Part shown: piece by piece, positions 47,982-48,150 of the stretch | Layout of the letters: each line of letters begins with the position of its first letter | Numbering within the stretch: position 1 is the first letter of the stretch | Origin: Scytalidium lignicola | Taxonomy: Eukaryota; Ascomycota; Leotiomycetes | Length of the DNA: 64,000 nucleotides | Reading direction: 5' to 3' | NCBI GenBank assembly: GCA_002812745.2 | Contig: NCSJ02000065.1 | Location: 1-64,000, forward strand | Notes under the pieces: generated by a model | Databases searched by the model: none | What the model was told of the DNA's origin: nothing | Seen by the model: the letters and a program-made list of their open reading frames with translations, nothing else | Position numbers and translations under genes: made by a program

Positions 47982-48134
47982 GGCACTTTGGCGGAGTGGT
48001 TAACGCGGCAGCCTGCTAGTTTCTCCTGAAACTGAAAGCTGCTTCCTTCGGGGTAAGTGAAATTCAACCTTATGCAAAGGTATCAAATTCCTAATAAAAA
48101 TCGTAGAGCGTGTGTTCGAATCACACAGGTGTCG
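47982..48134 (+). tRNA. tRNA-Ser(GCU) with two insertions
   Basis: All cloverleaf parts are present. The acceptor GGCACTT pairs with AGGTGTC, with discriminator G at 48134. The D stem is GCG/CGC. The anticodon stem is GCAGC/GCTGC, with loop C-T-GCT-A-A. The T arm is GTGTG-TTCGAAT-CACAC. The A box (TGGCGGAGTGG) and B box core (GTTCGAATC) are intact. Insertion 1 (48019-48036, 18 nt) follows the base after the anticodon, the standard eukaryotic tRNA intron site, and can fold with AGTTTC/GAAACT. Insertion 2 (about 48053-48106, 54 nt) is in the variable arm and looks like a spliceosomal intron (GTAAGT, CTAAT at 48091-48095, TAG). Without both, the variable arm is TTCC-TTC-GGGA, normal for tRNA-Ser. 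Confidence 0.85.
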
Positions 48135-48145
48135 TAAATCAAAAC

Positions 48146-48150
48146 TTTTT
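48146..48150 (+). terminator. Pol III T-run terminator
   Basis: TTTTT begins 11 nt after the tRNA 3' end, as expected for RNA polymerase III termination. A second T-rich run follows about 20 bp further on. Confidence 0.7.

Follow-up and report, generated by a model that had tools for sequence, protein, structure and literature searches.

Splicing of mRNA and splicing of nuclear tRNA are treated as separate pathways acting on separate substrates. U6 snRNA genes of some fungi carry spliceosomal introns, which are likewise of the mRNA type and located in a gene transcribed by RNA polymerase III (Pol III); U6, however, is a single RNA and itself a part of the spliceosome. According to excerpts of the respective reports, the rDNA of the lichen fungus Cladonia grayi contains a 57-bp spliceosomal intron that is removed by yeast from a Pol I transcript (PMC8527467), and fungal U3 snoRNA genes, which are called Pol III-transcribed there, contain ordinary spliceosomal introns, nearly all of them in a single stem-loop (133 of 138 share one site; PMC5832005). 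The ascomycete rDNA introns are likewise short, spliceosomal and situated in a structured RNA, but they belong to Pol I rRNA genes and not to tRNA genes; the U3 introns also are spliceosomal introns of a structured RNA, U3 being one snoRNA. Ectopic tRNA introns are described for archaea, nucleomorphs and Cyanidioschyzon; the excerpt of that report ties them to the tRNA endonuclease and to bulge-helix-bulge (BHB) motifs (PMC3978253).

Scytalidium lignicola is a saprotrophic opportunist able to become a human pathogen, and the genome note on strain DSM 105466 (826 contigs, 47.7 Mb) makes no mention of tRNA introns (PMC6256649). In the assembly searched here (664 contigs, 46.85 Mb; the versions may differ), 20 tRNA genes of 10 anticodon families were found to contain 21 GT-AG inserts, both numbers being lower bounds for the genome; two of the genes look decayed. 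Judged from the sequence, these putative spliceosomal introns form a genome-wide set that is larger than the single case in the window (the whole 64,000-nucleotide stretch that was analysed), and with ten tRNA anticodon families hit S. lignicola differs from the U6-only case. The set appears to behave like the U6 and rDNA introns, but in a gene class for which no precedent was found: no earlier description of tRNA genes with spliceosomal introns was among the matches listed by a search that left preprints and most subscription papers outside.

The window gene (contig C621, 47982-48134) is a tRNA-Ser(GCU) gene with two introns, an 18-nt anticodon intron and a 54-bp insert, and is composed as follows:

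47982..48018, + strand: exon 1 with acceptor (GGCACTT, beginning at 47982), D arm, anticodon stem, anticodon GCT and A37 (sequence, Rfam, ARAGORN)
47989..47999, + strand: Pol III A box TGGCGGAGTGG, intact
48019..48036, + strand: ordinary tRNA intron of 18 nt at position 37/38, not GT-AG
48037..48052, + strand: exon 2 with A38, the 3' half of the anticodon stem and the start of the variable arm (TTCC-TTC-GGG; variable-arm sequence TTCCTTCGGG, last base 48052)
48053..48106, + strand: putative spliceosomal-type intron of 54 bp in the variable arm (GTAAGT, CTAAT, TAG; begins with gtaagt and closes with cctaataaaaatcgtag; same site and length in the copy on contig C499)
48053..48058, + strand: 5' splice site GTAAGT
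48091..48095, + strand: branch-site box CTAAT, with 12 intron nt beyond the branch A
48104..48106, + strand: 3' splice site TAG
48107..48134, + strand: exon 3 with the end of the variable arm, the T arm (GTGTG-TTCGAAT-CACAC), the 3' half of the acceptor and the discriminator G (48134)
48114..48122, + strand: Pol III B box GTTCGAATC, intact
48146..48150, + strand: T5 run, probable Pol III terminator

The tRNA-Ser(GCU) gene with its anticodon intron and its variable-arm insert had been proposed in a first-pass annotation, and the coordinates and features given there proved correct by sequence, Rfam and ARAGORN, as did the GTAAGT start, the CTAAT box placed 11 nt short of the insert's end and the final TAG. 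The Rfam family RF00005 matches 47982-48134 with 38.4 bits, the insert notwithstanding, and is the sole Rfam match in the window. ARAGORN in no-intron mode reported zero tRNA genes across the window and called the raw gene a tRNA-Asp. With the insert removed, a tRNA-Ser was obtained whose anticodon (tga) is wrong owing to a misplacement of the 18-nt intron by ARAGORN; once both introns were taken out, the remaining 81-nt sequence was called tRNA-Ser(gct), so that the tRNA is regained as had been claimed. A group I or group II intron was rejected, as the catalytic core of such introns takes hundreds of bases as opposed to 54 bp and the only Rfam match is that of the tRNA.

The window insert is very probably a spliceosomal intron of the U2 type, located in a tRNA gene that is transcribed by Pol III. 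This reading is preferred because of the GT-AG ends, the branch box, a length typical of mRNA introns, the fold regained upon removal, splice signals that are kept among related copies though the intron cores differ, and the lack of an intact copy among the places found for Phe and Ser(GCU). Transcription by Pol III would rely on the intact A and B boxes of the gene, the GT-AG intron would be excised by the spliceosome, as happens with the U6 introns of some fungi, and the ordinary intron at 37/38 would be taken out by tRNA endonuclease and ligase.

A pattern derived from the 5' half of tRNA-Ser(GCU) was run over the whole genome with up to 3 mismatches and gave three places (0 places in the backwards control), namely the window gene, a gene on contig C499 and a Ser(UGA) gene. 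Besides the window gene, the C499 gene is the sole Ser(GCU) gene detected with this pattern; it is interrupted at the same site, and no intact copy was among the places. Its variable-arm insert is also 54 bp long, starts with GTAAGT and has CTAAT equally far from the end. Because site, length and signals are shared even though the two inserts agree at just 39 of 60 aligned positions, the window insert is more than a chance occurrence. A second insert of 51 bp (GTATGT...TTAAT...TAG) lies in the T loop of the C499 gene. Between the mature sequences of the two genes there are 11 differences in 81 positions, each of them within the acceptor and anticodon stems, and 17 of 17 pairs of the acceptor, anticodon and T stems are kept in each gene. 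From their sequences, both Ser(GCU) genes look selected as tRNAs. The view that the window gene is a dead copy, which the first-pass annotation had offered as an alternative, is unlikely in light of the differences confined to stems, the kept pairs and the lack of an intact Ser(GCU) gene among the places of the 5'-half pattern.

The remaining genes came from several genome searches. Rfam yielded a list of 55 tRNA matches, which is incomplete, with 63 of 2176 candidates scored. Among its long matches, C129 and C555 represent genes of the Arg(UCU) type in which an insert of the form GTAAGT...CTAAT...TTAG separates the D stem from the anticodon stem. Contig C648 (142,778 bp) accounts for 14 of the 55 matches and is probably the mitochondrial genome, an assignment made because tRNA matches cluster there. 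The nuclear Phe genes and both Ser(GCU) genes are missing from this list, which was incomplete for other reasons as well. Essential genes can escape standard tRNA finders. With a D-arm pattern (24 places, as compared to 45 in the control) we obtained a Ser(UGA) gene (C188:154269) with a 162-bp GT-AG insert between anticodon bases 2 and 3, which is followed by two exon bases and then by an ordinary 38-nt intron. Another Ser(UGA) gene (C333, around 280900) and a damaged copy occupy opposite strands, have similar flanks and, by eye, resemble an inverted duplication.

Two patterns searching for CTAAY...AG upstream of a B box matched 67 and 56 places, as compared to 69 and 59 in the backwards control. 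Since these numbers are close to the control, the counts as such are meaningless, and tRNA structure served as the criterion for every place. From the 67 places, 42 were read with flanks and 11 passed a T-stem filter (duplicates counted once); nine of the 56 were read with flanks. The remaining places of both patterns were judged from the matched letters. The genes added in this way are Thr(AGU) on C125, Arg(ACG) on C140, C355 and C373, two Pro(AGG) on C636, Phe(GAA) on C173, C188 and C653, Leu(AAG) on C288, Trp(CCA) on C30, and Pro(UGG) on C399 and three times on C532. A Glu(CUC) gene (C646) also passed the T-stem filter and was discarded upon being read as carrying an ordinary 37/38 intron. 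In two Arg(ACG) loci the ordinary anticodon-site intron is only 7 nt long and occurs alongside the spliceosomal-type one. A last pattern matched 40 places (126 in the backwards control) and no new case was recognised from the matched letters; the 40 include the known genes on C621 and C129 and three apparent Ile(AAU) genes in which the anticodon loop itself reads CTAAT.

A GT-AG register compatible with the tRNA exists in 21 of 21 ectopic inserts, versus 0 of 16 ordinary introns from the same genes. The register is unique in seven inserts; the other 14 permit two to four registers, one of them GT-AG, because bases at the junctions repeat. The 5' splice sites conform to GTRNGY, with G at position 5 in 21/21 and T or C at position 6 in 17/21 and 4/21, respectively. 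A CTAAY branch box is found 9-15 nt from the insert end in 20/21 and TTAAT in one, a count to be read with the knowledge that 15 of the 21 inserts were found via the CTAAY...AG patterns and picked by eye for tRNA structure. The 5' ends were outside these patterns, yet all 15 inserts found with them begin with GT(A/G)NG, and CTAAY is present in five of the six inserts obtained by other routes (window gene, 5'-half pattern, Rfam, D-arm pattern).

Insert lengths range from 48 to 61 bp with one of 162 bp (median 54). For comparison, the predicted proteins B7463_g4407 and B7463_g4405 were aligned to the window letter for letter with GT-AG junctions, which gave six introns of 48, 55, 56, 56, 65 and 76 nt in these two predicted gene models. 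A motif finder for protein-gene introns produced 24 candidates versus 8 in the reversed sequence and was too noisy, so that only the six protein-mapped introns are cited. At 54 bp the window insert falls within their 48-76 nt, in agreement with the protein-gene-like length ascribed to it at first sight. The length class, together with the GT-AG register in 21/21 inserts, lends good support to the original reading as an mRNA-type intron.

The same features bear on a proposal which we regard as very unlikely, namely that the inserts are ectopic tRNA introns of the kind known from archaea, nucleomorphs and the red alga Cyanidioschyzon and are cut out by the tRNA splicing endonuclease. To our knowledge, the ectopic introns of those organisms, likewise located away from 37/38 and linked there to BHB motifs and endonuclease, come without GT-AG ends and branch boxes, and we know of no role for GT-AG, a G at position 5 or a branch box in the endonuclease pathway; here GT-AG is found in 21/21 inserts along with the position-5 G and the branch box. 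Canonical 37/38 introns, presumed substrates of the endonuclease, are present in most of the same genes; they differ from the inserts by their fixed site and by the absence of a GT-AG register in 16 of 16 cases, while position 37/38 is occupied by 0 of 21 inserts (numbering by hand). A strict BHB motif has a 4-bp helix flanked by 3-nt bulges; its central helix was found in 0/21 inserts (mean 1.38 of 4 pairs), but equally in 0/16 ordinary introns (mean 1.81), which makes it a weak test with little power here. In favour of the proposal are the ordinary introns in most of these genes and the fact that non-canonical tRNA introns are known from the organisms named, many of those in the Guillardia nucleomorph having no defined BHB motif according to the excerpt of the report (PMC3978253).

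Removal of the putative spliceosomal introns in silico restored most of the genes. ARAGORN assigned the correct isotype to 2 of 20 raw genes, to 16 of 20 after removal of the insert and to 16 of 20 after removal of both introns; at least one spliced form was assigned correctly for 18 of the 20. The two failures are the genes that look decayed, C555 (anticodon TTT, a D-arm deletion and a change in the B box) and C399 (no tRNA detected by ARAGORN).

Closely related copies were compared. After splicing in silico the Thr(AGU) gene on C125 is identical to an uninterrupted paralogue (C510:141753-141824) at 72/72 bases, and the pair offers an empty-site comparison for the birth of spliceosomal introns. 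The three Phe genes share the same exon sequence (72/72), while their intron cores agree at 15/31, 17/31 and 19/28 positions with GTAAGC and CTAAY kept. The upstream flanks of the Phe genes are alike at 45 to 52 of 60-62 positions, and part of the exon identity may therefore reflect recent duplication. The acceptor pair 4-69 is a G-G mismatch in 3/3 Phe copies. Two of the Pro(UGG) genes on C532 have identical exons (72/72) and cores agreeing at 16/30 positions, and the third gene on this contig matches at 69/72. The two Pro(AGG) genes on C636 are also identical in their exons (72/72); their introns share the last 22 bases, so this pair may be young. The Arg(ACG) exons are less alike (64, 65 and 71 of 72).

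Intact copies were sought with short motifs. A 19-nt motif of the Phe anticodon arm (up to 3 mismatches) matched 12 places in the genome (control 10). The three exact ones are all split, the nine others have 3 mismatches and are un-tRNA-like from the matched letters, and no intact Phe tRNA gene was found with this motif. A motif for the intact form of Arg(ACG), with 1 mismatch allowed, matched 11 places (control 12), and none of the three inspected with flanks was tRNA-like. A Pro motif matched 34 places (control 19); of two inspected, one is an intact Pro(AGG) gene (C640) and one looks decayed (C443). Intact copies are also present for Thr(AGU), Trp(CCA), Arg(UCU) and Ser(UGA).

If the split tRNA genes were insertion-hit pseudogenes, decoding would be left to intact copies elsewhere. 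The intact copies just listed for five of the families, Pro(AGG) included, would fit such a situation, as would the decay seen in 2/20 genes. For Phe and Ser(GCU), however, no intact copy was found by the respective motifs, the places up to one mismatch from the intact Arg(ACG) motif were not tRNA-like in any of the three inspected, and the Ser(GCU) genes differ from each other by paired stem changes only. We therefore consider the pseudogene interpretation highly improbable for the set and retain it for only two genes (C555 and C399).

Insertion sites were assigned with our own numbering. Nine inserts belong to the D loop or its edge (Phe 3, Leu 1, Thr 1, Pro(UGG) 4), two to the junction of D and anticodon arms (Arg(UCU)), six to the anticodon loop, either inside it or at its edge (Arg(ACG) 3, Pro(AGG) 2, Ser(UGA) 1), and one to the T loop (C499), so that loops and junctions hold 18 of 21. 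The other three interrupt stems, namely the anticodon stem of Trp and the variable arm of both Ser(GCU) genes. Insertion, perhaps through reverse splicing, is the probable origin of the introns, and the tRNA sites hit were mostly loops and arm junctions. Such sites would suit reverse splicing into a folded tRNA, an origin that is possible but unproven; insertion at the DNA level is possible too.

Many inserts of similar length in one genome could also point to an introner or transposon family that is merely intron-like. Across the 21 inserts, the longest word shared by intron cores of different anticodon families is 11 bases, within the range of 9-13 obtained from shuffles, and this explanation is accordingly given very little probability; the introner-like insertion envisaged in the first-pass annotation is not supported. 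When the window locus was compared with the genome, solely the self-match was returned. This agrees with a lack of further copies of the insert, but the search also missed the exons of C499 and is hence weak. It is extremely unlikely that the inserts are an assembly artefact: the genome was indeed built from short Ion Torrent reads, with gene models from AUGUSTUS (PMC6256649), but 21 inserts with splice signals at 20 loci would be unlike homopolymer errors.

The U6 family search returned three places in the genome, two of them above the family cut-off. The first U6 gene (C33:222316-222428) contains one 51-bp GT-AG insert with CTAAT, and the second (C195:44158-44260) has two inserts that match it in form and measure 52 and 50 bp. 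The third place (C657) is under the cut-off and looks decayed. The U6 inserts show that the same intron class occupies another Pol III gene in this genome.

Taken together with the U6 genes, the tRNA introns suggest that the spliceosome is likely to be an obligatory enzyme of tRNA maturation in S. lignicola, all Phe, all Ser(GCU) and probably all Arg(ACG) genes being split by introns gained repeatedly, perhaps via reverse splicing and mostly in loops and junctions of Pol III transcripts including U6. As every Phe and Ser(GCU) copy found is split, the cell of this wood and litter mold probably needs mRNA splicing for tRNA production. If this is true, the spliceosome is able to act on tRNA precursors made by Pol III, and translation is tied to splicing capacity, with the decoding of whole codon boxes directly dependent on it.

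Finally, the internal promoters and possible terminators of the genes were inspected. The A box is intact in 20/20 genes; the introns of Phe and Leu begin at the end of the A box, which is restored by the intron's own first G. Runs of four T occur in 4 inserts versus 7.4 in shuffles (P = 0.055), so that avoidance of terminators is at best a weak trend. T5 runs are present in 2/21 inserts (C129 and C555) as compared to 2.9 in shuffles, and these two might terminate Pol III. The B box is intact in 18/20 genes, being mutated in C555 and split in C499 by the T-loop intron, which casts doubt on the transcription of the latter gene. A GTTCGACC motif located downstream of the C499 gene (C499:74600-75050) might act as an outside B box.
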